From Pseudonocardiaceae bacterium YIM PH 21723 (lineage in GTDB: Bacteria > Actinomycetota > Actinomycetes > Mycobacteriales > Pseudonocardiaceae): DNA of 64,000 nucleotides. The notes beneath the pieces were generated by a model. It did not search any database, had not been told where the DNA came from, and was given only the letters and a program-made list of their open reading frames with translations. The translations under genes and the position numbers were made by a program. The stretch is taken from positions 186,001-250,000 of the forward strand of contig QZFT01000023.1 in NCBI GenBank assembly GCA_003600225.1, in the 5' to 3' direction. Shown piece by piece: positions 7,678 to 61,148 of this stretch (position 1 is the stretch's first letter; every line of letters begins with the position of its first letter).

Positions 7678-7730
7678 CCGGAGTTGACGATTTTCGCGCG
7701 AGGAACGAGCCCGAAACTCGTCAACTCCGG
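7678..7730. repeat. dispersed inverted repeat copy R1
   Basis: CCGGAGTTGACGATTTTCG (7678-7696) and its near-perfect complement (7712-7730, one mismatch) flank a 15-nt loop rich in CG/GAGGAACG. It sits 12 bp after the alpha/beta hydrolase stop and 26 bp before the dioxygenase start. It is probably a terminator-like member of the repeat family found also near 2979, 8965, 16216 and 29967. Confidence 0.8.
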
Positions 7731-7756
7731 GCACCGTCGGCCGTTAGGGTGGCCGT

Positions 7757-26342: not shown

Positions 26343-27725
26343 GTGGATTTGATCACGCTGAACGAGGTGTTCGGGATCTCCCGGACGGTGCCCGCCAACT
26401 ATGTGGAGCGCACCGACGTGGAGCTGCGGTTCCTCCAGGCCCTGGGCCGGGGGCAGCACGTGGTGCTGCACGGCAGCTCCAAACAGGGAAAGACCTGCCT
26501 GCGCAAGTGGATGCTGGCCCGCGACCAGCACATCGTGATCACCTGTGCGAACCGCTGGACGCTCGGCGACATCCACAGCGCCATCCTGAAGCTGGCCGGC
26601 TACACCGTCGAGCAGTCGACCAGCCGGACCAGCGGCGGCGAGCACAAGATCGTCGCGAAGTGGGCGCAGGCCGCCGAGATCGGTAGCGAGCGGGTCATCG
26701 GGCAGTACCGGGAAGTGGTGCGGGCACCGCTGGAACTGGATCCGTTCGACGTTAACGACATCATCCGGGCACTGGCTGAAATCGGATTCAACAAATACAT
26801 CGTGCTGGAGGATTTCCATTATCTTCCGCATGAGGTCCAGCAGGACTTCGCTGTAGCCCTGAAAGCGTTTCATGAATCCGCCGACCACTGCTTTGTGGTG
26901 ATCGGTGTCTGGCTCGAGGCCAATCGGCTGGTGCAGTTCAATGGGGATCTGACCGGCCGGGTGCAGTCGATCGACGCCGACGCCTGGACCAGGGAACAGT
27001 TGCGGCAGGCGATCACCAACGGGGAACGGCTGCTGAACGTCGAGTTCCCGGCCCACTTCGTCGAGGAACTCCTGGACCACTGCTGCGACAGCATCTGGGT
27101 GGTGCAGGAGGTCTGCCGCACGGTCTGCGAGCTGGCCGGCGTACTGGCCACCCAGACCGAGCCGCTGCCACTGCGGCCCAGCCGATCGGTGCCGGACCTG
27201 GTCCGCATGGTGGTCGACACCCAGACGGCCCGGTTCGCCACCTTCGTCTCCGGCTTCGCCGCCGGGTTCGGCAGCACCGACCTGGAGATGTACAAGTGGC
27301 TCCTGGCGGCGGTGCTGGTCAGCGAACCGGAGATGCTCACCGCGGGGCTGACCTACCAGGACTTGAAACGCTTCGTCGAGCAGCACCACCCGCTGCGGCC
27401 GATCAATCCGGGCAACCTTACGCACGCGCTCAAGTCGGTCACCACCCTGCAGGTCACCCGCTGCATGATCAATCCGATCGTGCTGGACTACGACCAGAGC
27501 CTGCGCAAACTCACCGTGGTCGATCGCGGTTTCCTGATCTGGCTGGGCAGGCAGGACATCGAGGACCTCCTCGATCAGGCCGATCTGCCCGCCGCCTTCG
27601 TCCGTGACTGGCGGCGTGGGCGGACCATCGGTGCGCACGCGTTGCCGGCAGGCGGGAGAATGGCGACGTGGACGCCGCAACCTGGGATGACCGCTACGCC
27701 GCCACCGATCAACTCTGGTCGGTGA
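26343..27725 (+). CDS. P-loop ATPase (AAA/STAND-like) of unknown role
   Basis: A 460-residue ATPase. Walker A is GSSKQGKT (44-51) and Walker B is YIVLED (152-157). A sensor-type strand FVVIGVWLEANRL follows, then a helical C-terminal region with winged-helix-like segments (LTYQDLKRFVEQ, LTVVDRGFLIWLG). This resembles Orc/Cdc6-like or STAND ATPases seen in bacterial signalling and defence loci, but I cannot name the family. GTG at 26343 is taken; no clear ribosome site is visible. The last 58 bp overlap the methyltransferase gene in another frame, which suggests coupling. It was formerly preceded by nothing but the terminator, so it has its own promoter. Confidence 0.7.
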   Translation: MDLITLNEVFGISRTVPANYVERTDVELRFLQALGRGQHVVLHGSSKQGKTCLRKWMLARDQHIVITCANRWTLGDIHSAILKLAGYTVEQSTSRTSGGEHKIVAKWAQAAEIGSERVIGQYREVVRAPLELDPFDVNDIIRALAEIGFNKYIVLEDFHYLPHEVQQDFAVALKAFHESADHCFVVIGVWLEANRLVQFNGDLTGRVQSIDADAWTREQLRQAITNGERLLNVEFPAHFVEELLDHCCDSIWVVQEVCRTVCELAGVLATQTEPLPLRPSRSVPDLVRMVVDTQTARFATFVSGFAAGFGSTDLEMYKWLLAAVLVSEPEMLTAGLTYQDLKRFVEQHHPLRPINPGNLTHALKSVTTLQVTRCMINPIVLDYDQSLRKLTVVDRGFLIWLGRQDIEDLLDQADLPAAFVRDWRRGRTIGAHALPAGGRMATWTPQPGMTATPPPINSGR

Positions 27726-33125: not shown

Positions 33126-36100
33126 ATGGCAGGACAACGCCGTGCACTGATCATCGGCTACTCACGTGGTCCCGAGGATCTGCGACAGGTCACCGACGAC
33201 GCCAACCGGCTCGCCCTGCTGCTGCGACATCGGCGCATCGGCCGCTTCGCCTCGGCGAACGTCCTGCTCCAGCCGGACAGGGCCACCGCCGAGCGCGCCC
33301 TGGAGCGCCTGCTCGAGGGCTGCCAGGCCGAAGACACGGTGCTGGTCCACGTGATCGGCGAGCTGCTCGCCACCCGCAGGCAGAACGACCGGTTCTACCT
33401 GCGGGTGGCGGACACGGCCCTCGACCAGCCACAGTCCACCGCCCTCCCGGACGTGCGGTTGCAGGAGATGCTGGACCGCTGCCAGGCGAGCCGGAAGGCG
33501 GTCTTCCTGGACTGTGTGCTGCAGGACCTGGACCCGCCGGTGGGCATGGCGCCCGTCACCGCGGTGCCGGACCTCGGTGACGCCACCTTCCTGACCGCGG
33601 CGACCGGCCGGTTCAGTCCCGCTCAGGCTCCGGTGACCGCGTACGACCATCCGTTCACCGCGGCGCTGGCCGACGTGCTCCGGTCGGGCAGCAACACGCC
33701 GACCACGGCGGCGGATCTGGTGCGGCGGGCGGCCGGCCAGGTCTACGAGCAACCAGTGGGTTCGGCGCACACCAGCGGCCTGTTCACCATCGCCGAGGCC
33801 CGCCAGCCCCTGCCGCCGCAGACCTGGCGACGGCCGACCGTGCTGGAGCTGACCGGCGGTCCGTGGACCGCGGACCGGATCGGCCGCAAGCCCGGCTACC
33901 GGGTCCCGATCGGCGTGAACCTCATCGGCCAGCCGGTCATGCTGGACCTCACTCCGGTGTTCCGGCACGGCGACGGCCCGCACGGCCTGATCATCGACCG
34001 CACCGGCGATCGCTGGGTGGGCGTGCTGCGCGACATCATCGGCGGGCTGATGGCGACGCACTCGCCGGAGGACCTGGAGTTCCTGTTCCTGCACGCCGGA
34101 GCGCCCACTACCTTCATGAACGTGGCCCAGCTGCCACACGGCATCGCGACGATCGACGCCACCGACCAGCCCGCCCGGGTGGCCGATGAGCTGTGGGCCG
34201 AGCTGCGCCGACGGCAACGGATGCTGGAACAGGCCGGCGCGAAACACGTCGACGACTACCGGCAGCGCCGGGCCGGGGACCCCGGACTCCCGGCCATCCC
34301 CGAGCTGGTCGTGGTGCTGGTGCAGGCGGATCGGTACGCGGGTGGTCCCGAATTGCGGGAGACCCTGTTCACCCTGTGCCGGATGGGGCGTTCGGTCAAC
34401 GTGCACCTGCTGTTCGAGATGGCCGAGCCGGACGCGGTTCCCGGACTGGACGCCTACTTCGCCTTCCGGATCGAGGTCGACCGGGACCAGGCCCGGCTGA
34501 CCACGCAGAACCAGGGCACGACCAGCTATCTGCCGCTCGGCATGGTCCCGTTCCAGCAGTGGGACGAAATGATCGTCGCGATGGCCGAGGCCGGCTGGCT
34601 CACCCCCATCACGCGCACCGAACCCCCGCGCAGGCCCATCCCCCTCGGCACGACCGAGGACGGCGGGCGGATCGAGGTGGACTTCGCCGACGACCAGCAT
34701 CTGTCGATCTTCGGAGACCGGGAGTCCGGCAAGACGACCCTGCTGCGAACGGTGATCAAGGGCATCACCGGGCAGTACACCCCGGAGCAGGCGATGTTCC
34801 TGGTACTCGACCCGCACCACTCGCTGTCCGGCCTGGTCGACGAGGAGCACCTGCTCGGTCACGCGGTCACCACGAGGTCGATGGACCACATGCTGGGTGA
34901 CGTCATCACGTCGCTGCGCAAACGCGTGCCGGGGTCACACATCACCCAGCGGCAGAGCCGCAACCAGGCCTGGTGGACGGGGCCGGACGTGTTCGTCGTC
35001 GTCGACGACTACGAGCAGCTGATGAACGGCTTCCAGCAGCAACTGGCGCCGCTGGGCGAGATGCTCGGCCTGGCCGGCAGCATCGGCCTGCACCTGATCG
35101 CCGCGTGTTCCGCGGAGGCCGCGTACAAGCAGCTGTACGACCGGGTGCTCGGTGCGGCGCGGGAGCGCTCCCTCGCGATCGTGCTGCCCGGTATGCCCGG
35201 CGGTGGCAGGCTACCCGATTCGATCGAGGTCTCCGAGGGCCCGGCCGGTCGGGCCGACCTGGTGCGTCCCGGCGGTGGCGAACCGGTTCGCTTCCAGGCA
35301 CTGGACACCCCTGACCCGTCCGAACCGGCGGCTGCCGGGGCGACGACCGCCACCACTCCCCCGCTGAGCCTGGAGCATCACCTGCTGGCCTTCGGGACCA
35401 GCCTGTCCGAGCACGCCGCGCTGCTGCGCGCGGCAATCAGCGGCATTACCCAGCGGTACACCGCGGCGGAAGCGCTCATCCTGGTGCTCGACGGCGAGAA
35501 CACCCTGGGAGGCGCCGTCCCGGAGGACTATCTGCTGGCGTATCACCGCAGCGATGACGAGCTCGAAACGACGCTGTCGGACGTGGCCAAGTCAATGGAA
35601 CACCGCGTGCGCACCGCGTGGCGCGGTCCGAAACTGTTCATCATCGTCAACGGCCTGCCTAACTATCGGCGGCTGGTGCAGTGGGAGCCGTTCCTGCCGC
35701 ACGCGCGGCACATCGGCCTGCACCTGATCGTCACCGCGCGCCCGGAGGCGTTCCACAGTGCGCGGCACGCCCAATTGCTGGGCGATCTCAGGCAGCGTCG
35801 TATCCCGACGCTGCTGCAGGCCGGCTACCCGGTGCACTACCGGCCGAGCAACATGAAACCGGACATACCGGGGGAACCCGCCCTGGTGCTGGAGCAGGGT
35901 CGCCAGGCCAGGATCGTGGACCTCGGCTTCCCGGATACCGGGCGGCGCATCGCCATCGGCACCGGCGAGGACGGTGGGCCCGTGGAGGTCGATTTCAGCA
36001 TCCACCAGCACCTGATGGCCTTCGGTGCGGCGAAGACGGGCCGGTCCACGTTGCTGCGCACCGTCATGAAGGGCATCACCGAGCGGTACACCGCCCAGGA

Positions 36101-36632
36101 AGCCCTGATCGTCGTGATCGACTATTCGGGGTCCCTGAGGGACGTGGTCGACGGAGAACACCTGCTGGCCCATGTCGGCGAGCGGGACGACCTGCCCTCG
36201 ATTCTGCCGGACGTGATCACGAGTATGACCAAGCGGCTGGCCGGTCCATGGACGGGTCCGGAGCTGTTCCTGGTGATCGATGACCTCCACGCTGTACGGG
36301 AGCCGGAGTCCCCCATGGCCCAGTGGCCCTTGGAACCACTGCGCTCGGTCATCCAGCGGGCAGCGGAGGTCGGCCTGCATCTGGTGACCACCGATCGGAC
36401 CGCCACGGGTGGCAAGCACATCGAACACTGCACCGTGCTGTCCGCCGTGAAGCGGGCGAGCAGCCCGGCGGTGTACCTGCCGTGTGGCGAGAACGAGGGC
36501 CGGTGGCAGGACGTCCCGGAGTTCTCCGGCGAGCCGGGTCAGGCCGTGCTGTCCCGCTGTGTCGGCGTCTCGACCCCGGTCCGGCTGCACGACACCCCGC
36601 CCGCCGGATCGGCGGACGGGGTGACCGGGTGA
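33126..36632 (+). CDS. pseudo-caspase fused to an EccC-type FtsK/SpoIIIE ATPase with triplicated last domain
   Basis: A 1168-residue soluble protein. Residues 5-225 form a caspase (C14)-like domain (ALIIGYSRGP, DDANRLALLL, KAVFLDC). The catalytic His segment is HVIGE (75-79) instead of SGHG, and DCC becomes DCV (129-131), so the dyad looks lost. Residues 255-490 match EccC ATPase domain 1 but with a broken P-loop (DRTGDRWV, 291-298). Three similar EccC domain-3-like units follow, each with GITxxYT: P-loop GDRESGKT (530-537, intact, Walker B VVVDD 624-628), GTSLSEHA (757-764, dead) and GAAKTGRS (967-974, Lys to Arg). No TM or ESX partner is present. Start ATG follows GGGGGTAGG. Confidence 0.88.
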   Translation: MAGQRRALIIGYSRGPEDLRQVTDDANRLALLLRHRRIGRFASANVLLQPDRATAERALERLLEGCQAEDTVLVHVIGELLATRRQNDRFYLRVADTALDQPQSTALPDVRLQEMLDRCQASRKAVFLDCVLQDLDPPVGMAPVTAVPDLGDATFLTAATGRFSPAQAPVTAYDHPFTAALADVLRSGSNTPTTAADLVRRAAGQVYEQPVGSAHTSGLFTIAEARQPLPPQTWRRPTVLELTGGPWTADRIGRKPGYRVPIGVNLIGQPVMLDLTPVFRHGDGPHGLIIDRTGDRWVGVLRDIIGGLMATHSPEDLEFLFLHAGAPTTFMNVAQLPHGIATIDATDQPARVADELWAELRRRQRMLEQAGAKHVDDYRQRRAGDPGLPAIPELVVVLVQADRYAGGPELRETLFTLCRMGRSVNVHLLFEMAEPDAVPGLDAYFAFRIEVDRDQARLTTQNQGTTSYLPLGMVPFQQWDEMIVAMAEAGWLTPITRTEPPRRPIPLGTTEDGGRIEVDFADDQHLSIFGDRESGKTTLLRTVIKGITGQYTPEQAMFLVLDPHHSLSGLVDEEHLLGHAVTTRSMDHMLGDVITSLRKRVPGSHITQRQSRNQAWWTGPDVFVVVDDYEQLMNGFQQQLAPLGEMLGLAGSIGLHLIAACSAEAAYKQLYDRVLGAARERSLAIVLPGMPGGGRLPDSIEVSEGPAGRADLVRPGGGEPVRFQALDTPDPSEPAAAGATTATTPPLSLEHHLLAFGTSLSEHAALLRAAISGITQRYTAAEALILVLDGENTLGGAVPEDYLLAYHRSDDELETTLSDVAKSMEHRVRTAWRGPKLFIIVNGLPNYRRLVQWEPFLPHARHIGLHLIVTARPEAFHSARHAQLLGDLRQRRIPTLLQAGYPVHYRPSNMKPDIPGEPALVLEQGRQARIVDLGFPDTGRRIAIGTGEDGGPVEVDFSIHQHLMAFGAAKTGRSTLLRTVMKGITERYTAQEALIVVIDYSGSLRDVVDGEHLLAHVGERDDLPSILPDVITSMTKRLAGPWTGPELFLVIDDLHAVREPESPMAQWPLEPLRSVIQRAAEVGLHLVTTDRTATGGKHIEHCTVLSAVKRASSPAVYLPCGENEGRWQDVPEFSGEPGQAVLSRCVGVSTPVRLHDTPPAGSADGVTG

Positions 36633-36636
36633 TCGA

Positions 36637-36918
36637 TCAGCAGTCGACGAACTTCCGGTACTTCCAGCCGTAGCCCCAGCTCTTCTCCTCACCGCGGTTG
36701 AGCGACTTGCACGCGCCGGCGGTTCCGTCGGTGTACTCCGCCCGGATCCGGATGGTGTAGTCGCAATAGGAGTTCCTGGCCCAGACATAGAGCTGGTTGT
36801 TCGACCGGGCCGTGCATTTCTCCGCATTGCTCTGCACACCGGCAGGCTCGGCAGTGGCCACGCTCGTTCCCAGAAAACCGAGCGCGACGACAATTCCCAG
36901 AATGGTCTTCCGATACAT
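36637..36918 (-). CDS. secreted tendamistat-like (alpha-amylase inhibitor family) protein
   Basis: A 93-residue precursor with signal peptide MYRKTILGIVVALGFLGTSVATA. The mature part has four Cys spaced 16, 17 and 22 residues, close to tendamistat's 15, 17, 27. The middle block C-DYTIRIRAEYTDGTAGA-C parallels tendamistat's second disulfide connection. The inhibitory WRY triplet is not conserved (the loop reads YVWARNSY), so it may not inhibit amylase. GGAGAAGGA precedes ATG 36918. It ends five bases from the convergent caspase-EccC stop. Confidence 0.7.
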   Translation of the reverse strand: MYRKTILGIVVALGFLGTSVATAEPAGVQSNAEKCTARSNNQLYVWARNSYCDYTIRIRAEYTDGTAGACKSLNRGEEKSWGYGWKYRKFVDC

Positions 36919-47724: not shown

Positions 47725-47798
47725 TCCACCGGCCCCAGCCGGTGGGCCACGCGGCGCCGCCTGTCCGGCCGGTGAGTGCGCGGTGGAAAGGCGCCATC

Positions 47799-48803
47799 AT
47801 GCGCAGACTTCGCTATGCCCTGATATCGGCCGTCCTGGCGGCCTCGGCACTGGTCACCGCCCAGCAGATCGGCCAGTCCCCCGCGGCCCATACGGCCGCG
47901 GCGGTGGATCCGGTGATCAACTCGCCGTACATCTACCTGGGGAACTGGGTGAAGCCCGACATCCCCAAGCTGGTCGCCGCGACCGGCGTCAAGTCGTACA
48001 CGCTGGCGTTCTTCACCGACCCCGGCGGCAACTGCAGCCCCGTGTGGGCCAACGGCGGCGGCACCACCCCGGAACAGGTGATCAGCGCGATCCGCGCCTC
48101 GGGCGGTGAGATCACCGTGTCCGTCGGCGGTTACAGCGGTGAGGGTGTCCGCGACAAGCTCGGCCAGAACTGCGCCAGCGCCACCGCACTGGCCGCCGCC
48201 TATCAGAAGATCGTCACCAGCACGCGGACCGTGGCCCTCGACATCGACATCGAGGACAAGGAGGTCCTGGACAAGGCGGCGCGGGACAAGGTCGTCGCGG
48301 CGCTGAAGATCGTGAAGCAGAACAATCCCGGCCTGCGGACCGTGGTCACCTTCGGCAACCACCTCGACAGCCTGCCGACCGAGAACGTGGACATGATCTC
48401 CGTGGCCGCCGCCACCAGCGCGAACATCGACCTGTTCACCCTCATGCCGTTCGACAACGGCAACGCGGGCACCGACATGTTCGCCCTCACCAAGACCAGC
48501 GTGGACCGGTTGAAGGAGGCGGTGAAGGGCTCGTTCAAGCTCACCGACGAGCAGGCGTACCGGATGATCGGCCTGACCTCGATGAACGGCATCACGGACA
48601 AGCGGGAGAAGGTCTCACTGGCCAACTGGAAGCAGATCATCGCCTGGGCCAAGGAGAAGCACCTGAGCCGGGTGAGCTTCTGGTCGGTCAACCGCGACTA
48701 CCAGTGCGCGGGCGGCGAGACCGGCGAACTCAGCGCCACCTGCAGCGGCGTCGCCCAGCAGGACTGGGACTTCACCAGGGCACTCGCCTCCTTCAACGGC
48801 TGA
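47799..48803 (+). CDS. secreted GH18 chitinase-like protein, paralogue 1 of 5
   Basis: A 334-residue exported TIM-barrel protein with a signal peptide (MRRLRYALISAVLAASALVT) and no carbohydrate-binding module. Family signatures are SVGGYSG, then ALDIDIED (Asp148, Asp150, catalytic Glu152), LMPFDNG and SFWSVNRD followed by a Cys pair. The first Asp of the GH18 D-x-x-D-x-D-x-E box is Val. Hydrolysis of chitin or GlcNAc-glycans is the likely activity. A dre-like site and conserved leader lie upstream; gene 2 follows after 22 bp, so the two form one unit. Confidence 0.85.
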   Translation: MRRLRYALISAVLAASALVTAQQIGQSPAAHTAAAVDPVINSPYIYLGNWVKPDIPKLVAATGVKSYTLAFFTDPGGNCSPVWANGGGTTPEQVISAIRASGGEITVSVGGYSGEGVRDKLGQNCASATALAAAYQKIVTSTRTVALDIDIEDKEVLDKAARDKVVAALKIVKQNNPGLRTVVTFGNHLDSLPTENVDMISVAAATSANIDLFTLMPFDNGNAGTDMFALTKTSVDRLKEAVKGSFKLTDEQAYRMIGLTSMNGITDKREKVSLANWKQIIAWAKEKHLSRVSFWSVNRDYQCAGGETGELSATCSGVAQQDWDFTRALASFNG

Positions 48804-48825
48804 CCGAGCGAAAAGGCACAAGACC

Positions 48826-49818
48826 ATGCGCAAGCTCCGCTATGCCCTGGCGACCGCCGCTCTGGCCGGCGCCACCCTGACCGCGACCCACCAGGTGCAC
48901 CCGTCCCCGACCGCGGCGACGGCGGCGGTGGACCCGGTGATCAACTCTCCGTACCTCTACCTGGGGCTCTACGCCCAGCCCGATCCCGCCAAGATCATCC
49001 CGGCCACCGGCGTGAAGGCCTACACCATCTCGTTCATCAACAGCAGGACCAAGGGCACCTGCGATCCCACCATCGAGGTCAACAGCGGCCCCAACGAACT
49101 GACCGGCGCCAAGCCCCTCGTCGACCGGATCCGCGCGGCGGGCGGCGACGTGATCCTGTCCGTCGGCGGATGGGGCGGCAACAAACTGGGCGAGAACTGC
49201 ACCACGGCCGAGGCTCTGGCCGCCGCCTACCAGAAGGTGATCGACGCCTATCAGCTGAAGGCGCTCGACATCGACATCGAGGACCAGGAGATAGCCATCC
49301 AGGCGGCCAGGGAGCGGGTGGTGGCCGCCCTGAAGATCGTCAAGCAGAAGAACCCCGCGGTGAAGACCGTGGTCACCATGAGCAACGCCAAGGACGCGCT
49401 GCCCGCCGTCGCGCAGGCGCTCATCACCAAGGCCAGGGAGACCGACGCGGGCATCGACGTGTTCACCCTGATGCCGTTCGACAACGGCAACGCGAGCACC
49501 GACATGGCCGCCTTCACCAAGACCAGCGTCGACCGGCTCAAGGAGGCGGTGAAGACCGCCTTCGGCCTCACCGATGACCAGGCCTACCGGAAGGTCGGGC
49601 TGTCCTCGATGAACGGCATCACCGACCCGCCCTACCTGGAGAAGGTCACCCTGGACGCGTGGAAGCAGATCGTCGCCTGGGCACAGGAGAAGCACCTGGG
49701 CCGGGTGAGCTTCTGGTCGGTCAACCGCGACTACGGATGCGGCGCGGGCCCGACCTGCAGCGGGATCCCGCAGAACGACTGGGACTTCACCAAGGTCCTC
49801 GGTACCTACCAAGGATAA
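48826..49818 (+). CDS. secreted GH18 chitinase-like protein, paralogue 2 of 5
   Basis: A 330-residue paralogue of gene 1: signal peptide MRKLRYALATAALAGATLTA, SVGGWGGN, ALDIDIED (Glu152), LMPFDNGN and RVSFWSVNRDYGC. It belongs to the DIDIE/LMPFDNG subtype together with genes 1 and 4. The first Asp of the box is Lys. A long hairpin follows the stop, closing the first transcription unit. Confidence 0.85.
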   Translation: MRKLRYALATAALAGATLTATHQVHPSPTAATAAVDPVINSPYLYLGLYAQPDPAKIIPATGVKAYTISFINSRTKGTCDPTIEVNSGPNELTGAKPLVDRIRAAGGDVILSVGGWGGNKLGENCTTAEALAAAYQKVIDAYQLKALDIDIEDQEIAIQAARERVVAALKIVKQKNPAVKTVVTMSNAKDALPAVAQALITKARETDAGIDVFTLMPFDNGNASTDMAAFTKTSVDRLKEAVKTAFGLTDDQAYRKVGLSSMNGITDPPYLEKVTLDAWKQIVAWAQEKHLGRVSFWSVNRDYGCGAGPTCSGIPQNDWDFTKVLGTYQG

Positions 49819-49825
49819 TAACGTT

Positions 49826-49870
49826 ATACCGGTTGGCCGTAGGTGCTATGACCCTGCGGCCAGCCGGTAT
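49826..49870 (+). terminator. long hairpin closing the first GH18-like unit
   Basis: ATACCGGTTGGCCGTAGG (49826-49843) pairs with CCTGCGGCCAGCCGGTAT (49853-49870), 18 bp with two mismatches that are G-U pairs in RNA, and a 9-nt loop. Confidence 0.8.
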
Positions 49871-49893
49871 ATGTCAGTTGTCTTGACGACGCC

Positions 49894-49909
49894 ATTGGTC
49901 TAGTCCACT
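49894..49909. promoter_or_regulatory. dre-like (DasR) operator upstream of GH18-like gene 3
   Basis: ATTGGTCTAGTCCACT matches the DasR-response consensus ACTGGTCTAGACCACT at 14 of 16 positions, centred on the TCTAG core. DasR is the GlcNAc-responsive GntR repressor of chitinase genes in Streptomyces. Confidence 0.72.
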
Positions 49910-49924
49910 TTGGAGAGGCGCGCT

Positions 49925-49955
49925 CCCTGCCGAACCTGCGTGATGACTCCCTGCA
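49925..49955 (+). repeat. conserved leader block, copy 2
   Basis: CCTGCCGAACCTGCGTGATG...CTCCCTGCAC matches the leader of gene 1 (47693-47724) and gene 5 (52052-52084). The flanking CACTCCACCG also matches copy 1. Confidence 0.6.
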
Positions 49956-50033
49956 CTCCACCGAACCCGACGGTGGGTCACGCCGGTGCCGCCTTCTCGG
50001 CGTTGTGGCGCGCGAGTCGAAAGGCGTATTCGT

Positions 50034-51026
50034 ATGCGCAAGCTTCGCTACGTGCTGGCCTCGGCCGCCCTGGCGGGTGCCGCGGTGCTGACGGCACAGC
50101 AGATGACCGTCGGTTCCGTCGCCCAGACCGCGGCGGCCGCCGATCCGGTCCTCAACTCCCCCTACCTCTACCTCGGCGACTCCGCGCCCACCGACATCCC
50201 GGGCCTGATGACGGCCAGCGGTATCAAGTCCTTCACCCTGGCCTTCGTGATCAGCGGCGCCACCTGTGCTCCCATCGTGGACGGTGCGGGCGGGACCTTG
50301 GACGGCTTGGCGAAGGTGGTCGGCACCATCCGCGCCGCAGGTGGTGACGCGACGGTCTCCATCGGCGGCGCCGCGGGCAAGAAACTGGGTGACACCTGCG
50401 CCGACGCCACGGCCCTGGCCGGCGCCTACCAGAAGGTGATCGACACGACGAAGGTCACGGCGATCGACATCGACGCCGAGGGCACGGAGTACAAGACCGC
50501 GGCCATCCGCGACAAGATCACCAAGGCCCTGAAGATCGTGAAGGACAAGAACCCCGGCCTGAAGACGGTCATCACGCTGCCCACCGCCGCCAGCGGCCCC
50601 ATCGAGGGCGGCAGCGACTACATCCAGAAGGCGAAGGCCAACGGCTCCAACATCGACCTGATCACCGTCATGCCGTTCGACTTCTACGACGGCCAGACCA
50701 GCAATATCGCCGCAGCGACCCGCACCGCGGTGGACGGGCTGAAGAACCAGGTGAAGGCGGCCTTCGGCCTGACCGACGCCGAGGCCTACAAGCGGGTCGG
50801 CTTCTCCGGGATGAACGGCTCCGACGACGAAGGCAAGATCACCGACTTGAACGGCTGGAACCAGATCCTCGCCTACGCGAAGGAGAAGCACGTCGGCCGG
50901 GTGAGCTTCTGGTCGGTCAACCGCGACCACAAGTGCACGGGCCAGGACCCGACCGGCAACTCGTGCAGCGGCACCGAGCAGACCGACTGGGCCTTCACCA
51001 AGGCACTCGCCGGCTTCCAGGGCTGA
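50034..51026 (+). CDS. secreted GH18 chitinase-like protein, paralogue 3 of 5
   Basis: A 330-residue paralogue of a second subtype: signal peptide MRKLRYVLASAALAGAAVLT, SIGGAAGK, AIDIDAEG (Glu149), VMPFDFYDG and RVSFWSVNRDHKC. It groups with gene 5 by DIDAE and PFDFYDG. The first Asp of the box is Thr. It starts a new unit with the best dre-like site in the window. Gene 4 begins five bases after its stop, implying translational coupling. Confidence 0.85.
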   Translation: MRKLRYVLASAALAGAAVLTAQQMTVGSVAQTAAAADPVLNSPYLYLGDSAPTDIPGLMTASGIKSFTLAFVISGATCAPIVDGAGGTLDGLAKVVGTIRAAGGDATVSIGGAAGKKLGDTCADATALAGAYQKVIDTTKVTAIDIDAEGTEYKTAAIRDKITKALKIVKDKNPGLKTVITLPTAASGPIEGGSDYIQKAKANGSNIDLITVMPFDFYDGQTSNIAAATRTAVDGLKNQVKAAFGLTDAEAYKRVGFSGMNGSDDEGKITDLNGWNQILAYAKEKHVGRVSFWSVNRDHKCTGQDPTGNSCSGTEQTDWAFTKALAGFQG

Positions 51027-51031
51027 TAGGT

Positions 51032-52018
51032 ATGCGGAAACTCCACTACGCCCTGGCATCCGCGGCCCTGGCCGGCGCCACCCTGTTCACCACGCACGAG
51101 GTTCGGGTCGGCACGGTGGCCCAGACCGCCGATTTGGTGCTGAATTCCCCCTATCTGTACTCCTGGAGCGATGGCAATCCACAGGACCCGGTCGCGGTGA
51201 TGAACACAACCGGGATCAAGGCGTTCACGCTGGCTTTCGTGGTCGCGGACCGAGACCGTCCGGTGTGCGAACCCACTCTCGACGGCGCGGACCGGCTGGA
51301 CCGGGACGTCACCCTGGTGCAGAAGATCCGGGCGGCCGGTGGCGATGTCACCTTCTCGATCGGCGGCTGGGCGGGCAACAAACTCGGTGAGTTCTGCTCG
51401 ACTCCGCAGGCACTGGCGGATGCCTATCAGAAGGTGATCGACACCTACCGGCTCAAAGCGATCGACATCGACATCGAGGACCGCGAGTTCACCGAGCAGG
51501 CCCAGCGAGACCGGGTCGTCGAGGCACTGAAGATCACCAAACAACGCAACCCCTCAGTACGGACCGTGATCACCTTCGGGAATCACCTCGACAGCCTGCC
51601 CACCGAGGCCCAGGAGATCATCACCAAGGCCAAGGAGATCGACGCGGGCATCGATCTGTACGCGTTGATGCCCTTCGACAACGGTGACCCTGCCACCGAC
51701 ATGGTCGCCCTGACGAGGAACGGTGTCGACCGGCTGCAGAAGGCGGTGAAGACCACCTTCGGCCTCACCGATGACCAGGCCTATCGCAAGATCGGCTTCT
51801 CGTCGATGATCGGCCTCACCGACAGGTCCGAGGTGGTGACCCTCGACGGCTGGAACCAGATGCTGGCCTACGCCAAGGACAAGCACCTTGGCCGGGTGAG
51901 CACCTGGTCGGTGAACCGGGACTACCCATGCCCAGGGCAACCGACGGGCAACTCCTGCAGCAGCATCGACGCCCCCGCGTTGTCCTTCACCAAGGCACTC
52001 GCGTCCTTCCAGGGCTGA
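51032..52018 (+). CDS. secreted GH18 chitinase-like protein, paralogue 4 of 5
   Basis: A 328-residue paralogue of the gene 1/2 subtype placed after a gene 3-type copy: signal peptide MRKLHYALASAALAGATLF, SIGGWAGN, AIDIDIED (Glu149), LMPFDNGD and RVSTWSVNRDYPC. The first Asp of the box is Lys. A perfect 10-bp hairpin follows the stop. Confidence 0.85.
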   Translation: MRKLHYALASAALAGATLFTTHEVRVGTVAQTADLVLNSPYLYSWSDGNPQDPVAVMNTTGIKAFTLAFVVADRDRPVCEPTLDGADRLDRDVTLVQKIRAAGGDVTFSIGGWAGNKLGEFCSTPQALADAYQKVIDTYRLKAIDIDIEDREFTEQAQRDRVVEALKITKQRNPSVRTVITFGNHLDSLPTEAQEIITKAKEIDAGIDLYALMPFDNGDPATDMVALTRNGVDRLQKAVKTTFGLTDDQAYRKIGFSSMIGLTDRSEVVTLDGWNQMLAYAKDKHLGRVSTWSVNRDYPCPGQPTGNSCSSIDAPALSFTKALASFQG

Positions 52019-52023
52019 TGACG

Positions 52024-52049
52024 GTGGGCGCCCCTGACAGGGCGCCCAC
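52024..52049 (+). terminator. hairpin closing the second GH18-like unit
   Basis: GTGGGCGCCC (52024-52033) and GGGCGCCCAC (52040-52049) are perfect arms with a 6-nt loop, followed by TTCCCC. Confidence 0.85.
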
Positions 52050-52051
52050 TT

Positions 52052-52084
52052 CCCCTGCCGATCCGCCGTGGTACCTCCCTGCAC
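52052..52084 (+). repeat. conserved leader block, copy 3
   Basis: CCCCTGCCGATCCGCCGTGG...CTCCCTGCAC, ending 16 bp before the start of gene 5. No dre-like site is seen here, so gene 5 may rely on read-through or on this block alone. Confidence 0.6.
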
Positions 52085-52099
52085 CGAAAGGCATCCACC

Positions 52100-53071
52100 A
52101 TGCGAAAGCTTCGCTATGCCCTTGCCGCTGCCGCCCTCGCGGGAGCCACCGTCATCACGACCCAGCAGATCCAGCTGAGCCCGGTGGCGCAGACCGCCGT
52201 CGACCCCGCGCTGAACTCGCCGTACCTGTACGACTGGGAGAACAAGCAGGACCCGGTGAAGGTGATGGCCGCGACCGGCATCAAGAGCTTCACCCTGGCC
52301 TTCATCACCGACAAGCCGAACGGCCAGTGCACCCCGGGCTGGGACAACACCGGCGACCTGACCCGGGACGTCGCCAAGATCGCGGCCATCCGGGCGGCCG
52401 GCGGTGACGTCACGGTGTCCATCGGCGGCGCGACCGGGCCGAACATCCAGAAGAACAAGCTCGGCGTCAACTGCGCCGACGCGAACGCCCTCGCGGCCGC
52501 CTACCAGAAGGTCATCGACACCCTGAAGGTCACCGCGATCGACATCGACGCGGAGAACGAGGAGTACAAGGACCTCGCCGTCATCGACAAGATCACCAAG
52601 GCCCTGAAGATCGTCAAAGACGACAACCCCGGTCTGAAGACGGTGATCACCGTGCCGACGACCAAGAACGGCCCCATCGCGGGCGGTACCGAGTTCATCA
52701 AGAAGGCCAAGTCCAACAACTCGAACATCGACCTGATCACCGTCATGCCGTTCGACTTCTACGACGGCACCAGCGACATCCCGGCAGCGACCAGGACCGC
52801 GGTGGACGGGCTGAAGAAGCAGGTCCAGGACACCTTCGGGCTGACCGACGCCGAGGCCTACAAGCGTGTCGGCTTCTCCGGGATGAACGGAAAGGACGAC
52901 GAGGGCAAGATCACCGACCTGAACGGCTGGAACCAGATCCTCGCCTACGCCACGGAGAAGCACGTCGGCCGGGTGAGCTTCTGGTCGGTCAACCGCGACT
53001 ACACCAGCGGTAGCGGTGTCCCGCAGACCGACCTGGCCTTCACCAAGGCCCTCGCCGGTTTCACCGGCTGA
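52100..53071 (+). CDS. secreted GH18 chitinase-like protein, paralogue 5 of 5
   Basis: A 323-residue paralogue of the gene 3 subtype: signal peptide MRKLRYALAAAALAGATVIT, SIGGATGP, AIDIDAEN (Glu152), VMPFDFYDG and RVSFWSVNRDYT. It lacks the C-terminal Cys pair kept by the other four. The central 150 residues are nearly identical to gene 3, showing recent duplication. A perfect 11-bp hairpin follows. Confidence 0.85.
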   Translation: MRKLRYALAAAALAGATVITTQQIQLSPVAQTAVDPALNSPYLYDWENKQDPVKVMAATGIKSFTLAFITDKPNGQCTPGWDNTGDLTRDVAKIAAIRAAGGDVTVSIGGATGPNIQKNKLGVNCADANALAAAYQKVIDTLKVTAIDIDAENEEYKDLAVIDKITKALKIVKDDNPGLKTVITVPTTKNGPIAGGTEFIKKAKSNNSNIDLITVMPFDFYDGTSDIPAATRTAVDGLKKQVQDTFGLTDAEAYKRVGFSGMNGKDDEGKITDLNGWNQILAYATEKHVGRVSFWSVNRDYTSGSGVPQTDLAFTKALAGFTG

Positions 53072-53199: not shown

Positions 53200-54165
53200 G
53201 TGCGCGACGCGGCCATCCTGCAGCGCCGTTTTCAGCAGCTGACGACGAACATCGAAGACTTCATCCACGGCAAACCCGAGGTGGTGAAGCTGGCCGTGGT
53301 GTGCCTGCTCGCGCAGGGCCACCTGCTGATCGAGGACGTGCCCGGCGTCGCCAAGACCTCCCTGGCGAAGGCCATCGCCCGATCGATCGCCGGCGCCACC
53401 GTGAAGCGGATCCAGTTCACCCCCGACCTGCTGCCCTCGGACGTGACCGGCGTGCAGGTGTACGACCAGTCGACCGGCGGTTTCGAGTTCCGCCAGGGCC
53501 CGGTGTTCACCAACATCCTGCTCGGCGACGAGATCAACCGGGCCTCACCCAAGACGCAGTCCGCGCTGCTGGAGGTCATGTCCGAGTACCAGGTGACCGT
53601 GGACGGCGAGCCGCTCGGCGTGCCGTACCCCTTCCTGTGCGTCGCCACCCAGAACCCGGTGGAGTACCAGGGCACCTACGCGCTGCCCGAGGCACAGCTG
53701 GACCGGTTCATGATGCGGATCAACATCGGCTACCCGGAGAACCTGGAGGACGAGGTCCGGATCCTGGCCGACGGCGTCGCCCGGCGGAAGCCCGAGGAGC
53801 TCAAGTCGGTGATGGAACTGGACGACCTGCGGCTGATGATCCAGGCCGTCCAGGGTCTGCACATCGCGCCCGAGCTGCAGAACTACATCGCGACCATCGT
53901 CCGGTCCACCCGCAGCCACAACGACGTCCGGCTGGGCGCCAGCCCGCGTGGTGGCATCGCCCTGGCCGCCGCCGCGCAGGCCTACGCGGCGGGTTCCGGC
54001 CGGCCGTATGTGCTGGCCGATGACGTGAAGGCGGTCGCGGTGCCGGTGCTGAACCACCGGCTGCTGCTGACCGCGGAGGCCCGGGTGCAGCAGCAGACGC
54101 CGGAGTCGATCGTCCGGGAGATCCTCAAGACCACCCCGGTGCCGCGCCAGCCGATGGACTCCTGA
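53200..54165 (+). CDS. MoxR-family AAA+ ATPase
   Basis: A 321-residue chaperone-type ATPase: Walker A EDVPGVAKTSLAK, Walker B LGDEINRASPKTQSALLEVM, sensor 1 VATQNPVEYQGTYALPEAQLDRF and C-terminal lid with the RxxSPRG-type SPRGGIALA. MoxR ATPases assemble or activate partner protein complexes with DUF58/VWA proteins. GTG start with AAGGGGG upstream. First of a four-gene operon with 2-bp and ATGA junctions. Confidence 0.93.
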   Translation: MRDAAILQRRFQQLTTNIEDFIHGKPEVVKLAVVCLLAQGHLLIEDVPGVAKTSLAKAIARSIAGATVKRIQFTPDLLPSDVTGVQVYDQSTGGFEFRQGPVFTNILLGDEINRASPKTQSALLEVMSEYQVTVDGEPLGVPYPFLCVATQNPVEYQGTYALPEAQLDRFMMRINIGYPENLEDEVRILADGVARRKPEELKSVMELDDLRLMIQAVQGLHIAPELQNYIATIVRSTRSHNDVRLGASPRGGIALAAAAQAYAAGSGRPYVLADDVKAVAVPVLNHRLLLTAEARVQQQTPESIVREILKTTPVPRQPMDS

Positions 54166-54167
54166 CC

Positions 54168-55271
54168 ATGCTGACACCGACCGGATGGGGCATCGCCGCC
54201 TCCTCGGCGGTCCTGCTGGCCGCGGGCTTCGCCGCCGACTACCCCGAGCTGGTGATGATCGGCATCACCGGCGCCGCCCTGCTGCTGCTGGCCTCGCTGT
54301 GGCTGCTGGCCAAACCGGAACTGTCGGTCAGCAGGCAGATCAGCCCGGAACGGATCTTCGAGGGCACCGAGGCACGCGGCAGGCTGACGGTGACCAACAC
54401 CGGCCGCCGGCGCACCCCACCACTGGCCGTCGTGGAGGAACTGGACGGCACTCGCAGCACGGTGTGGCTGCCCGACCTGGCCACCGGAGAGAGCTGGGAG
54501 ACCGACTACCCGCTGCCCACGACCAAGCGTGGCCGGTACGCGATCCCGGCGCCGATCGTCGGCCACACCGATCCGCTGCGGCTGATCCGCCGTGGCCGGG
54601 CCGCGGGCGTGGACAGCACACTGCACGTCTATCCGCAGGTGCACGAACTGCGCACGGTGTCCCTGGGCGGCCCGCAGGACGAGGAGGGTCCGACGTCCAG
54701 CCTGGCCCCGCAGGGCGGCGTGGCGTTCCACAGCCTGCGGGAATACGAGCCGGGCGACGACTGGCGGCTGATCCACTGGCCGTCCTCGGCCCGCACCGGC
54801 ATGCTCGTCGCCCGGCACACCGTCGTCCCGGATCAGCCACGTCAGCTGGTACTGCTGGACACGTCGGACGACCGGTCCTTCGAGGACGCCGTCCGGGTCG
54901 CCGCTTCGCTGACCGTGGCCGCCGAGCGAGCCGGCCATCCGGTGGAGCTGCGCACCACCGCGGGCCAGACGATCACCGGCGACATGGCGACCGTGCTCGA
55001 CTCGTTGTCCACGGTCACGCCCTCGGCCGAGGATCGGGGCACCGACGTGCTGCTGGACGTCGCCTCCGCGGATCAGGGGGTGGCCCTCACGGTGATCACC
55101 GGCGATCCGGATCCGACGAAACTGGAGTCCCTGGCCATGGTCCGGGGCCGGTTCCTGAACATCACCGTCGTCCACTTCGGACAGCCGCGCACCGCCCCGG
55201 GGCTCACCGTCATCCGCGCGGAATCCAGCGAGGACTTCGCCAGGCAGTGGAACAACCTGGTGCTGAGATGA
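54168..55271 (+). CDS. DUF58 membrane protein
   Basis: A 367-residue protein with two N-terminal TMs (7-50), an Ig-like beta region, and the DUF58 core with the signature LREYEPGDDWRLIHWPSSARTGMLVARH followed by a vWA-like fold (QLVLLDTSDD). DUF58 proteins are the usual partners of MoxR. ATG starts two bases after the MoxR stop; ATGA overlap with the next gene. Confidence 0.92.
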   Translation: MLTPTGWGIAASSAVLLAAGFAADYPELVMIGITGAALLLLASLWLLAKPELSVSRQISPERIFEGTEARGRLTVTNTGRRRTPPLAVVEELDGTRSTVWLPDLATGESWETDYPLPTTKRGRYAIPAPIVGHTDPLRLIRRGRAAGVDSTLHVYPQVHELRTVSLGGPQDEEGPTSSLAPQGGVAFHSLREYEPGDDWRLIHWPSSARTGMLVARHTVVPDQPRQLVLLDTSDDRSFEDAVRVAASLTVAAERAGHPVELRTTAGQTITGDMATVLDSLSTVTPSAEDRGTDVLLDVASADQGVALTVITGDPDPTKLESLAMVRGRFLNITVVHFGQPRTAPGLTVIRAESSEDFARQWNNLVLR

Positions 55272-57259
55272 TCCGGACCGTCGGCACAACCCTGCTGTGT
55301 GCGACGGCCGCCGCCTCGTCCGCACTCTTATGCCCGGCGTTGTTCGGCGATCGGGGTTACGTTCCGCTGCTGCTGATAGCCGCCGTACTGTCGGCGACGC
55401 TTCCGCTGCTGGGCCGCTGGGCGCCTGTGCCGGCCCTCGCCGGTCTGGTCGTGTTGCCCTGGCTGACGAACAACCCACTGTCCGCGCTGCTCACCGGCTG
55501 GGCCCACCTGCTGTCCGTGGGCCTGCCCACGGATCCCGCCGGGGATCTGCTGTTACCACCGGCCGTCCTGGTGTGGACCTCGGGATTCCTGGGTTCCTGG
55601 CTGACCCGCCGCCGCGCCCGGCCGCTGCTCGCCCTGCTTCCCGCCGTGCTGGCGTTCATCGCGATGTTGCTGCTTGTCGGCGAACAGCCGGGCGCTCATC
55701 CGCTGGCGGCCCCGGTGCTGACGGCGACCTGCCTGCTCCTACTGCTTCGTCCCACCCCGACCAGCGCGGGCGCACTCCTGGCGGTCACCGGCCTGGTCGC
55801 CGGGTTGCTGCTGGCTCCTACGCTGGTCACCGGTGAACACCGCTTCGACCCGCGCCGGTTCCAGCCCGGCCCCACGATCATCGCGGACACGGTGACCCCG
55901 CTGTCCACCGTCACCCGGCAACTCAAGATCGCCCCACCCGTGGATCTGTTCCACGTGCGCATCGCGCCGGAACAGGCATCCCGGGTCGACCGCATCCGCA
56001 TCGCCGCGCTGGACCACTACGACGGTGTGCTGTGGGCCGATTCCAGCCACTACCGCCCGGTCGGCAGGCGTGTCCTCGACGAACAACCCCAGGGCGGACA
56101 GTTCGAGGCCCTCGTCGACGTCCATGGCCTCACCGGCCCCTATCTGCCGCTGCTGACCGGCACCAGCCAGGTGGATCTGCCGGAATCCGCGATGGATCCA
56201 CTGAAATTCGGTAAGACCAACGGCAATCTGGTGGTCAGCGGCCCCCGGCCCGCCGAACTGAGCTACACCACACATGGCACCCTGCCGCCGCGGCAGGATC
56301 AGTTGACTGCCGGGACCGTGGTCCGGCAGGTTGGTCCACCGCCCGGAATTCCGGTGGATCTGGCGGCCAAGGCTCGGGAGTACGTTCCCTCGGACAACCC
56401 GGGCTACCCCGCCCTCAGCAGCCTGGCGGCAAAACTGCGGTGGGCAGCCTCCTCCACCCGGGTCGATTCCGGTCAGTCCTACGCGGATATCAAGCAACTG
56501 GTGAGCACCGGCAACGGCGACGGGCCCGAGCCCCGGGTCTCCGGCTTCGCCGTTCTGGCCCGCTCACTCGGCCTGTCCGCCAGGGTGGCCGTCGGCTACC
56601 GCCTGCGCAGCTACCACCAGGATCACTTCGCGGTCACCTCCGCCGACGCGCAGGCCTGGCCGGAAGTGCACTTCGCCGGCCTCGGCTGGATTCCGTTCGA
56701 TGTCACGGATCCCCCGTCCCCACCGATCGACCAGACCGTCACGGAGATGGTCCAGCCACCGGCCGGCGGCGATGGCACCACCTCGGCACCGCAGACGCGT
56801 CCCACCGACCTGCCGCAGGGCCGGCCGGACACCGATCCGTCACCGATGACCGCCACCGGGCCGGCCGGTGCCGCTTTGCTGCTGGTGCTCGCGCTCAGCA
56901 CAGTTCCGGCGGTCAAGGCCATCCGCCGGCACCGGCGGCGCTCCCGGCCCGGCCCGGCCGGACAGATCATGGGTGCCTGGCTGGAGATCTGTGACCGGCT
57001 GACGGAACGCGGCCTGCGGGTCACCGTGTCGATGACCGCACACGAGATCGCCACCCGGGCACGTCCGCTGGGGATCACCCTGTCCGAGGCGGCCGACGCC
57101 GCCGACGCCGCCGTGTTCGCGCGGGTCATACCGGCATCCGACGCCGTCGCCCGGGTCTGGGAACACGAAGCACAGCTGAGGAAGGCCTCGTATCAGGACC
57201 GGATCCGCGCGTTGTTCGATCCGCGTCCGCTGCTGAACCACCTGGGGAGACGGAGATGA
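55268..57259 (+). CDS. TgpA-type membrane protein with a catalytically degenerate transglutaminase domain
   Basis: A 663-residue protein: six to seven N-terminal TMs (to about 188), an outer transglutaminase-like domain (about 385-482), a Pro-rich linker, a TM near residue 545 and a C-terminal DUF4129-like helix bundle. In active relatives the box reads CEQFA...FAVLARSLG and HAWPEV. Here the Cys position is Pro420 (PEPRVSGFAVLARSLG) and the His is Gln462 (DAQAWPEV); only Asp478 is kept. It therefore cannot use the Cys-His-Asp mechanism. ATGA overlaps at both ends mean it is still co-translated with the operon. Confidence 0.9.
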   Translation: MIRTVGTTLLCATAAASSALLCPALFGDRGYVPLLLIAAVLSATLPLLGRWAPVPALAGLVVLPWLTNNPLSALLTGWAHLLSVGLPTDPAGDLLLPPAVLVWTSGFLGSWLTRRRARPLLALLPAVLAFIAMLLLVGEQPGAHPLAAPVLTATCLLLLLRPTPTSAGALLAVTGLVAGLLLAPTLVTGEHRFDPRRFQPGPTIIADTVTPLSTVTRQLKIAPPVDLFHVRIAPEQASRVDRIRIAALDHYDGVLWADSSHYRPVGRRVLDEQPQGGQFEALVDVHGLTGPYLPLLTGTSQVDLPESAMDPLKFGKTNGNLVVSGPRPAELSYTTHGTLPPRQDQLTAGTVVRQVGPPPGIPVDLAAKAREYVPSDNPGYPALSSLAAKLRWAASSTRVDSGQSYADIKQLVSTGNGDGPEPRVSGFAVLARSLGLSARVAVGYRLRSYHQDHFAVTSADAQAWPEVHFAGLGWIPFDVTDPPSPPIDQTVTEMVQPPAGGDGTTSAPQTRPTDLPQGRPDTDPSPMTATGPAGAALLLVLALSTVPAVKAIRRHRRRSRPGPAGQIMGAWLEICDRLTERGLRVTVSMTAHEIATRARPLGITLSEAADAADAAVFARVIPASDAVARVWEHEAQLRKASYQDRIRALFDPRPLLNHLGRRR

Positions 57260-59754: not shown

Positions 59755-61148
59755 AGATAGCGCCCCTGCAAGGTCTCGTCCAGCTGCCGCCGGGCGGCGA
59801 CCACCGCCTGCGGGTCGCCGTCGAACGCGCCGTGCCGGAGCAGCGGTGAGTCCGCGCCGAGCCGCAGGTTGAGCCGCTGCGGCACGGTGCTGGCCCCGGT
59901 GTGCAGCTGGTAGGCGAACTCGCCGAGCGAGGTGAACGCGCCCTGGTGCAGTTCCAGCAGGCTGCGCAGGTACTCGTACTCCTCGAAGGCGTTGTCGTAC
60001 TCCGCCTCCAGCAGCACCGGGTTGAACACCTGGCGGAGCACCCGGTGCAGGTGCCTGCTGAGCGCGTGCCGGCTCCGGTGTCCGCCCCATTGCGGGAACT
60101 CGGCGGCGTGCTGGGGATCGATCACATGGCGCAGGGCGAGCGCGTGCAGCGCCGCCTCCTCCCGCCTGCCCGCCCGGATGGAGGTCGAGGTGAGCATCCG
60201 GTAGACGAGGTCCTCCCGGCCGGCCGACATACCGGCGATGCCGACCGTGTAGGCCAGCAGCAGGGCCGGATACGACTCGGCCCGTAGCCACACCTCGCGG
60301 GCCGAGCTGGGCGGCGCCGAGGAACGGCGGTTCGCGATCCGGTTGATCAGGCTGATCCACAGTTCGTCGTGCCGGTTGCCACCGAAACAGGCGCCGACGG
60401 CGACCAGCCGCAGCAGCTGTCCGAGGTCCCGCTCGTAGCCGGTCAGCCGCTGTTCCAGCACCGCGGGGACGTCCACCCCGGACATGCTCACCGGGTATCG
60501 ATGCTCGCCGATGGCCTCCACCGCCTCGGCCGCCGCCAGGTGCACGATGTCCTGGCCGACCGCCTTGCCGCCGGGGTCCACCAGCGACTGCCGCAGCCGG
60601 GTCACCTCGCTGCGCAGTTCCCCTTCGACCTCGGGCGCCACCGAGACAGAGGGCGCGGGGCGGGTGCTCGCCGTGGGCACGGTCAGGCTCGGCACCAGAT
60701 CGGTGAGCTCGTCCAGCAACCGGGTCAGGTCGAAGTCGTCGCTGCGGTGATGCATCCGCAGGTACTGGCAGCGGGCCAGCCGGGTGATCTCCGGGGGCAG
60801 GTCGGGTTCGATGAGTGGCGGGATGCCGTCCAGCAGCACCGGGATGACCCGGATGCCCCGGTCGAAGGCGGCCGAGACCTCCCGGCGCACCCAGTCCGTC
60901 GGGCTGTCCAGCCTGCGGCCGCCATTGCGGTCCTGCGCGGTCAGCCAGCGCGGCCCGATGACCGCCAGCAGCACGTCACTGCGCCGCAACCGGGACTCGA
61001 TCTCCTCGGCGAAGTCCTCGCCGAGCCGGATCGACTTGCTGGCGTAGAACACCTTGTCCATGCCGAAGTGGCTGCCGAGCTCCCGCTTGATCAACGCGGC
61101 GGCCCACTCACCATCACCGGTGCGGTAGTTGATGAAGACCCCGCTCAT
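59751..61148 (-). CDS. TIR-domain protein
   Basis: A 465-residue protein: N-terminal TIR domain (1-150) with VFINYRTGDGEWAAALIKREL, DVLLAVIGPRWLT and a conserved acid Glu90 in DWVRREV (the NADase catalytic position). The remaining 300 residues are helical with no clear family (ALLLAYTVGIAGM, HALSRHLHRVLRQV). TIR NADases are effectors in bacterial antiphage systems, so a toxic NAD-depleting role is possible but unproven. ATG 61148. It follows the XRE-TPR regulator after 50 bp on the same strand. Confidence 0.85.
   Translation of the reverse strand: MSGVFINYRTGDGEWAAALIKRELGSHFGMDKVFYASKSIRLGEDFAEEIESRLRRSDVLLAVIGPRWLTAQDRNGGRRLDSPTDWVRREVSAAFDRGIRVIPVLLDGIPPLIEPDLPPEITRLARCQYLRMHHRSDDFDLTRLLDELTDLVPSLTVPTASTRPAPSVSVAPEVEGELRSEVTRLRQSLVDPGGKAVGQDIVHLAAAEAVEAIGEHRYPVSMSGVDVPAVLEQRLTGYERDLGQLLRLVAVGACFGGNRHDELWISLINRIANRRSSAPPSSAREVWLRAESYPALLLAYTVGIAGMSAGREDLVYRMLTSTSIRAGRREEAALHALALRHVIDPQHAAEFPQWGGHRSRHALSRHLHRVLRQVFNPVLLEAEYDNAFEEYEYLRSLLELHQGAFTSLGEFAYQLHTGASTVPQRLNLRLGADSPLLRHGAFDGDPQAVVAARRQLDETLQGRYL

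Follow-up and report, generated by a model that had tools for sequence, protein, structure and literature searches.

The EACC1 two-gene conflict systems, System 4 of Kaur, Burroughs, Iyer and Aravind (2020), include a described EACC1-caspase type, for which these authors proposed that EACC1 activates the caspase (PMC7159879). For EccC, the motor of type VII secretion, the crystal structure of ATPase domain 3 of M. tuberculosis EccCb1 with the EsxB tail places the substrate pocket at Leu423, Ala425, Glu437, Ala441, Leu442, Asn445, Leu446, Arg449, Phe469 and Val471 (PMC6954902). Here we describe a gene that joins parts of both kinds of protein, found in a 64,000-nucleotide stretch of Pseudonocardiaceae bacterium YIM PH 21723 (contig QZFT01000023.1, positions 186,001 to 250,000; hereafter the window). 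Its product consists of a caspase-like N-terminus with replaced catalytic residues, one unit like EccC ATPase domain 1 (D1) and three units like domain 3 (D3a, D3b and D3c). The gene is well supported by sequence comparison as an offshoot of a family of caspase-EccC fusions paired with EACC1, and at roughly even odds (a probability of about 0.5) we read it as a decommissioned member of that family, whose product would be a soluble, protease-dead adaptor, decoy or dampener with three pockets.

The gene (33126-36632, + strand) has a frame uninterrupted across 1168 codons, a plausible ribosome-binding site before its ATG and a third-position guanine-cytosine (GC) content of 0.87-0.92 across all domains. 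An earlier note on this DNA, made from the letters alone, had proposed a caspase-like N-terminus with both catalytic positions changed. The family profile NF047832 ('caspase, EACC1-associated type') matched residues 5-194 with 77 bits (E 1.3e-21), below its cut-off of 140 bits. When searched by itself against solved structures, the window caspase sequence matched no caspase; a profile built from intact relatives matched MALT1. An AlphaFold2 model of residues 1-250, with 38 relatives in the alignment, reached a mean predicted local distance difference test score (pLDDT) of 82 and a predicted template modelling score (pTM) of 0.83, and its top Foldseek match in the Protein Data Bank was the MALT1 paracaspase (E 5.9e-9), with caspases next. 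The caspase fold of residues 1-250 is confirmed at the level of this model. At the catalytic positions, GH has become GE (residues 78-79, with Glu79) and DCC has become DCV (129-131, with Val131), just as had been read from the sequence; since the catalytic residues are absent, the domain is predicted to be proteolytically inactive.

The rest of the protein derives from EccC. A Pfam scan returned FtsK_SpoIIIE three times, the NCBIfam model TIGR03925 (EccCb) scored 421 bits (cut-off 347), and the sequence search of solved structures likewise matched EccC D1 and D3. Residues 251-475 score 129 bits to the D1 profile versus 33 to that of D2, and the broken P-loop that the earlier note saw in this unit (DRTGDRWVG) is accompanied by an equally dead Walker B (VLVQAD). 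The motif GITxxYT, at residues 546-552, 773-779 and 983-989, marks the three repeats, which score 200, 84 and 131.5 bits to the D3 profile versus 37, 3 and 24 to the D2 profile. These scores bear out the proposal of three D3-like units and exclude a mixture of D2 and D3 units; by the same profiles the protein has no D2. The claim of a single intact ATPase stands in part: the GDRESGKT unit, D3a, is intact, but D3c also keeps GxxxxGRS and a DD. We count D3c as a unit with an ATP motif because this Walker A fits the regular form defined for EccC ATPase-3, GXXXXG[K/R][T/S] (PMC6954902). Judged by their motifs, D3a and D3c are plausibly ATP-binding, while D1 and D3b are dead. As the three units form one D3 clade and share pairwise identity of about 40% or less, the triplication was probably an event of this lineage, but an old one. 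No transmembrane segment was found in the protein (the maximum hydropathy over 19 residues is 1.51), which agrees with the earlier note and supports a soluble product.

The earlier note further held that these units borrow the substrate-recognition surface of EccC, and the pocket positions speak for this. At the ten positions D3a reads L H H D V S L R P V, D3b reads L Y T D V S M R P L and D3c reads L H S D V S M R P L; the EccC of the ESX locus on contig C68 of the source genome reads I Y G D I S M R P L. The three units match the pocket consensus at 7, 8 and 7 of the ten positions, where 3.1-3.7 matches are expected from conservation-matched columns (P = 0.035, 0.0013 and 0.022); under a slightly different background the scores are 6, 9 and 8. 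Outside the pocket, agreement of D3b with the consensus falls to 5 of the 16 positions at the ATP site and 58 of the 216 remaining ones. The excess at the pocket is absent from the control D3 domains of Streptomyces, Glycomyces, T. curvata and M. tuberculosis and of a very divergent fusion (L110), and absent also from D1, D2 and the extra units of the fusions described below. A model of D3b (pLDDT 71, with a well-ordered core) had as its top Foldseek match 4n1a, an EccC bound to a signal peptide. Together these comparisons are good evidence that selection kept the pocket; they are not conclusive, because the D3 copies are related and few.

To place the gene, we collected its family from 297 Pseudonocardiaceae genomes by a search with the caspase part followed by a full-length profile, and searched GTDB contigs with a profile of the caspase and first unit. 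The GTDB scan is biased toward intact copies because its patterns contained the catalytic motifs; the family-level scans are unbiased in that respect. In the intact layout, a small gene of about 95-150 amino acids precedes a protein of 1380-1550 amino acids made of a caspase, an extra D2-like unit (whose profile matches EccC ATPase 2), D1, D2 and D3. The small gene is EACC1 (PF19953), with one match over the Pfam cut-off and three near or under it; an EACC1 profile built for the family finds the gene next to each intact fusion, in two cases by six-frame search alone. In 37 of 37 distinct other actinomycete genomes whose fusion carries the extra unit, EACC1 lies directly upstream and both catalytic residues are present. 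Members are known from Pseudonocardiaceae, Streptomyces, Glycomyces, Nocardia and one Micromonosporaceae genome; long caspase reading frames (1200-1400 amino acids) in other Pseudonocardiaceae mostly carry other C-terminal modules, with two further true EccC fusions among them. None of the called neighbours of the intact fusions matches EccB, mycosin, EccD-like or Esx proteins of the source genome's ESX locus, which leads us to reject the intact family as a component of ESX loci. By the earlier note's own terms, homologues in complete ESX loci or a structure model of residues 1-225 unlike a caspase would have refuted its reading, and neither was observed. In four genera or species (L057, L059, L060 and L065) the intact pairs adjoin a lon protease gene, and in others (L063, L066-L068 and L085-L089) they lie in a mur/cell-division cluster. 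Directly downstream of one intact fusion (L057_7) there is a free-standing EccC D3 gene of 232 amino acids (L057_6; L057 4700-5398, - strand), so D3 duplicates in other lineages too.

Six proteins of the family have no extra unit: the product of the window gene, a paralogue on contig C19 of the source genome, and four from one other genus (L070, L080, L081 and L082). None of the six has a nearby EACC1, and in each the catalytic Cys is replaced (by V, S, A, A, A and A, respectively); five of the six have lost the catalytic His, and half have lost the D1 P-loop. The four genes of the other genus lie between prcA and pafA in the proteasome cluster, and a congener (L069) has an intact EACC1 with an active-looking fusion at the same site; the five form one supported clade (96/99). 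On the tree, the extra unit, EACC1 and the catalytic Cys appear to have been lost together at least two independent times. For the window gene itself, a six-frame profile search of window positions 20001-50000 found no EACC1, and neither EACC1 nor a second caspase-EccC gene was found within the window. A search of the source genome for EAD2 returned no match, as did its controls. A search for stripped copies at the order level (399 genomes) returned matches dominated by the D1 of ordinary ESX EccC. That EACC1 disappears together with both the extra ATPase unit and the caspase dyad amounts to a natural experiment, one that makes the predicted link from EACC1 to the caspase directly testable, and the pockets left in the stripped copies indicate which part of EccC does the recognition.

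Table 1. Features of the window gene (window coordinates) and related genes elsewhere in the source genome.
Feature	Position	Strand	Basis or remarks
Whole gene, 1168 amino acids: pseudo-caspase, dead EccC D1, three EccC D3 units	33126..36632	+	Open reading frame, domain profiles
Caspase-like domain, residues 1-245, probable EACC1-associated type, MALT1-like fold	33126..33860	+	NF047832, AlphaFold2 model, Foldseek
Catalytic His position lost: VIGELL (residues 76-81), family has (S/T)GHG	33351..33368	+	Alignment to family
Catalytic Cys position lost: FLDCVLQD (residues 127-134), family has LDCCYSG	33504..33527	+	Alignment to family
EccC D1-like unit, residues 251-475; Walker A DRTGDRWVG and Walker B VLVQAD dead	33876..34550	+	Profiles, motifs
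EccC D3-like unit a, residues 493-726; Walker A GDRESGKT and Walker B FVVVDD intact	34602..35303	+	Profiles, motifs
EccC D3-like unit b, residues 745-931; both Walker motifs lost, pocket 8/10 consensus	35358..35918	+	Profiles, model, Foldseek 4n1a
EccC D3-like unit c, residues 936-1145; Walker A GAAKTGRST (K to R) and Walker B LFLVIDD kept	35931..36560	+	Profiles, motifs
Second stripped caspase-EccC, 907 amino acids, contig C19	L052 9494-12217		His kept, Cys to Ser, no EACC1, D1-D2-D3 P-loops intact
Active-looking caspase, SGHG and LDCCYAG, contig C24	L079 6170-7504	-	Adjoins divergent EACC1
EACC1 gene, contig C24	L079 about 7690-8100	+	Divergent from caspase

The earlier note had found no ESX locus around the gene, and in the assembly the only EccB match is on C68, where it lies with mycosin, EccD-like, EccC and an Esx pair; all WXG100 matches are on contigs other than that of the window. 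With this locus and the intact EACC1-caspase pair on C24, both kinds of possible partner exist in the genome. The earlier note's suggestion of a conflict or cell-death system holds insofar as the gene is related to the predicted EACC1 conflict systems (PMC7159879); the gene is, in contrast to what the note implied, a stripped offshoot of a family and not a stand-alone invention. Mild support for a conflict setting comes from two candidate defence-family genes in the window, a 460-amino-acid ATPase (26343-27725, + strand) matched over nearly its whole length by PADLOC PDC-S59 (218 bits) and in Pfam only weakly by AAA_22, and a TIR protein (59751-61148, - strand; TIR_2, 57 bits) matched in its C-terminal part by PADLOC PDC-S65 (116 bits). 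The TIR gene adjoins a gene for a helix-turn-helix protein (61199-62491). Beyond the end of the caspase-EccC gene lies a 66-amino-acid reading frame (36637-36837, - strand) with a weak match, below cut-off, to the alpha-amylase inhibitor family PF01356 (E 9e-4). Farther along are five secreted proteins of about 320-340 amino acids encoded in tandem (47772-53071, + strand), apparently paralogues given their similar N-termini (RKLRYAL...), the first of which has no Pfam match, followed by genes for a MoxR-type ATPase, a DUF58 protein, a TgpA-transglutaminase and an 832-amino-acid protein with PKD and RCC1 repeats (53200-59754, + strand); the MoxR protein weakly matches bpMoxR of MoxR-vWA-beta-propeller systems.

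In established type VII systems, D3 of EccC binds the EsxB tail and this binding promotes EccC multimerisation; for caspases, activation commonly comes from being gathered in close proximity. By analogy, the D3 pocket of the intact fusion may sense a helical signal peptide, and the fusion may oligomerise on this ligand as EccC does on EsxB, which would bring its caspases together, with EACC1, a small hydrophobic protein, as the putative membrane-side partner. The window gene has lost its EACC1 partner along with the extra unit, with D2 and with the catalytic dyad; its D1 is dead and its D3 has multiplied to three. The soluble remainder is a pseudo-caspase that carries three D3 pockets in a row, two of which come with ATP motifs. 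Such a protein might capture Esx-type C-terminal signals or pair with an active caspase while having neither protease nor motor activity; one ATPase may serve as a switch and the caspase domain as a binding module, as the earlier note had suggested. A bolder version, which we hold only tentatively and think rather unlikely, makes the intact family an inflammasome-like receptor, a type VII motor serving as a ligand-triggered platform for caspase oligomerisation that senses Esx-type signal peptides, such as those of an incoming or misrouted type VII substrate, with the window gene evolved into a cFLIP-like inhibitor or decoy that has three pockets and a dead caspase. If this is true, a secretion motor has turned into a receptor, and the recognition step of EccC export would gate a caspase.

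Several points weigh against reading the window gene as a decommissioned but working adaptor. The pocket test draws on three related copies and ten positions, to which structural constraint could contribute, and ligand binding by the D3 units is something we infer from their residues; oligomerisation triggered by EsxB is carried over from what is established for EccC. The correlated losses rest on two or three events in six copies. The single clade of the window D3 units has moderate support (Shimodaira-Hasegawa-like approximate likelihood ratio test, SH-aLRT, 87) and long branches. No orthologue of the window gene was found across the 297 Pseudonocardiaceae genomes or in the pattern scan of GTDB contigs, so purifying selection is not directly measurable; a pattern scan of viral contigs returned no close relative either.

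One rival view is that the locus is a purposeless remnant of an intact EACC1-caspase-EccC system, drifting toward a pseudogene with its D3 tandem incidental. The very long branch on which the gene sits, the failure to find an orthologue, and the losses of EACC1, the extra unit, D2, the catalytic dyad and the ATP sites of D1 and D3b would all follow from decay, yet the 1168-codon frame is open with normal third-position GC in all domains, the modelled caspase fold is good, and the D3 units multiplied and then diverged to about 40% identity or less with their pocket residues kept; we consider decay unlikely. Doubtful in our judgement, too, is a housekeeping role, in which the protein is a soluble targeting factor that gathers Esx-type substrates for the type VII system on C68 and has no part in conflict. 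The components of that system are present, and its EccC has a D3 pocket (I Y G D I S M R P L) similar to the pockets of D3a, D3b and D3c; the window gene, however, is unlinked to the ESX locus, its intact relatives are all EACC1-caspase fusions away from ESX genes, and by a family-level search the intact family occurs in about 1 in 14 genomes of the bacterial family although every one has EccC. The retained pseudo-caspase fold, together with the intact SGHG and LDCCYAG motifs of the caspase beside EACC1 on C24, leads to another alternative, a cFLIP-like regulator of the C24 pair acting through a putative caspase-caspase contact; given that the two caspase domains belong to different subgroups and that the C24 pair has no EccC part, this strikes us as distinctly improbable.

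For genes of this kind the widely used annotation 'type VII secretion protein EccCb' is misleading: the window protein clears the cut-off of TIGR03925, yet it is probably no secretion motor. We also rejected identity with PADLOC mad8 of MADS (106 bits), since the match reflects only the shared FtsK/EccC ATPase fold and the ordinary ESX EccC of the genome scores 187 bits, and a PADLOC SspH match as generic, the ordinary EccC again scoring higher. In the literature, we found EACC1 together with caspases in two papers of the Aravind group alone. No paper describing an EccC-caspase fusion was found in published main texts, and the architecture may be listed in the supplements of the EACC1 paper. 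EACC1-caspase systems with variable tails are thus already known, and the version with EccC is the one we did not find in published text; the text of the EACC1 paper names about 50 C-terminal modules, from which EccC, ESX and type VII are absent (PMC7159879).

Compared with known systems, the window protein shares with the EACC1 systems the layout of an N-terminal caspase fold, in its case probably of the EACC1-associated type (77 bits, below cut-off), and a variable module at the C-terminus, here EccC D1 and three D3 units. Its intact relatives have the EACC1 gene (PF19953) directly upstream; the window gene lacks an EACC1, and its caspase is dead. With the MALT1 paracaspase and the caspase fold of clan CD it shares the fold of residues 1-250; the intact relatives keep the His-Cys dyad, both residues of which are replaced in the window copy, and its caspase probably belongs, unlike MALT1, to the bacterial EACC1 subgroup. 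Unlike the EccC motor (T. curvata 4NH0/4N1A; M. tuberculosis EccCb1 6J19), it has a caspase in place of the transmembrane N-terminus, no D2, a dead D1 and a tripled D3, and its gene, like those of its homologues, lies outside ESX loci. What it has in common with that motor is D1 and D3, by profile, sequence search and fold, and the substrate-pocket positions of D3, which it has kept.

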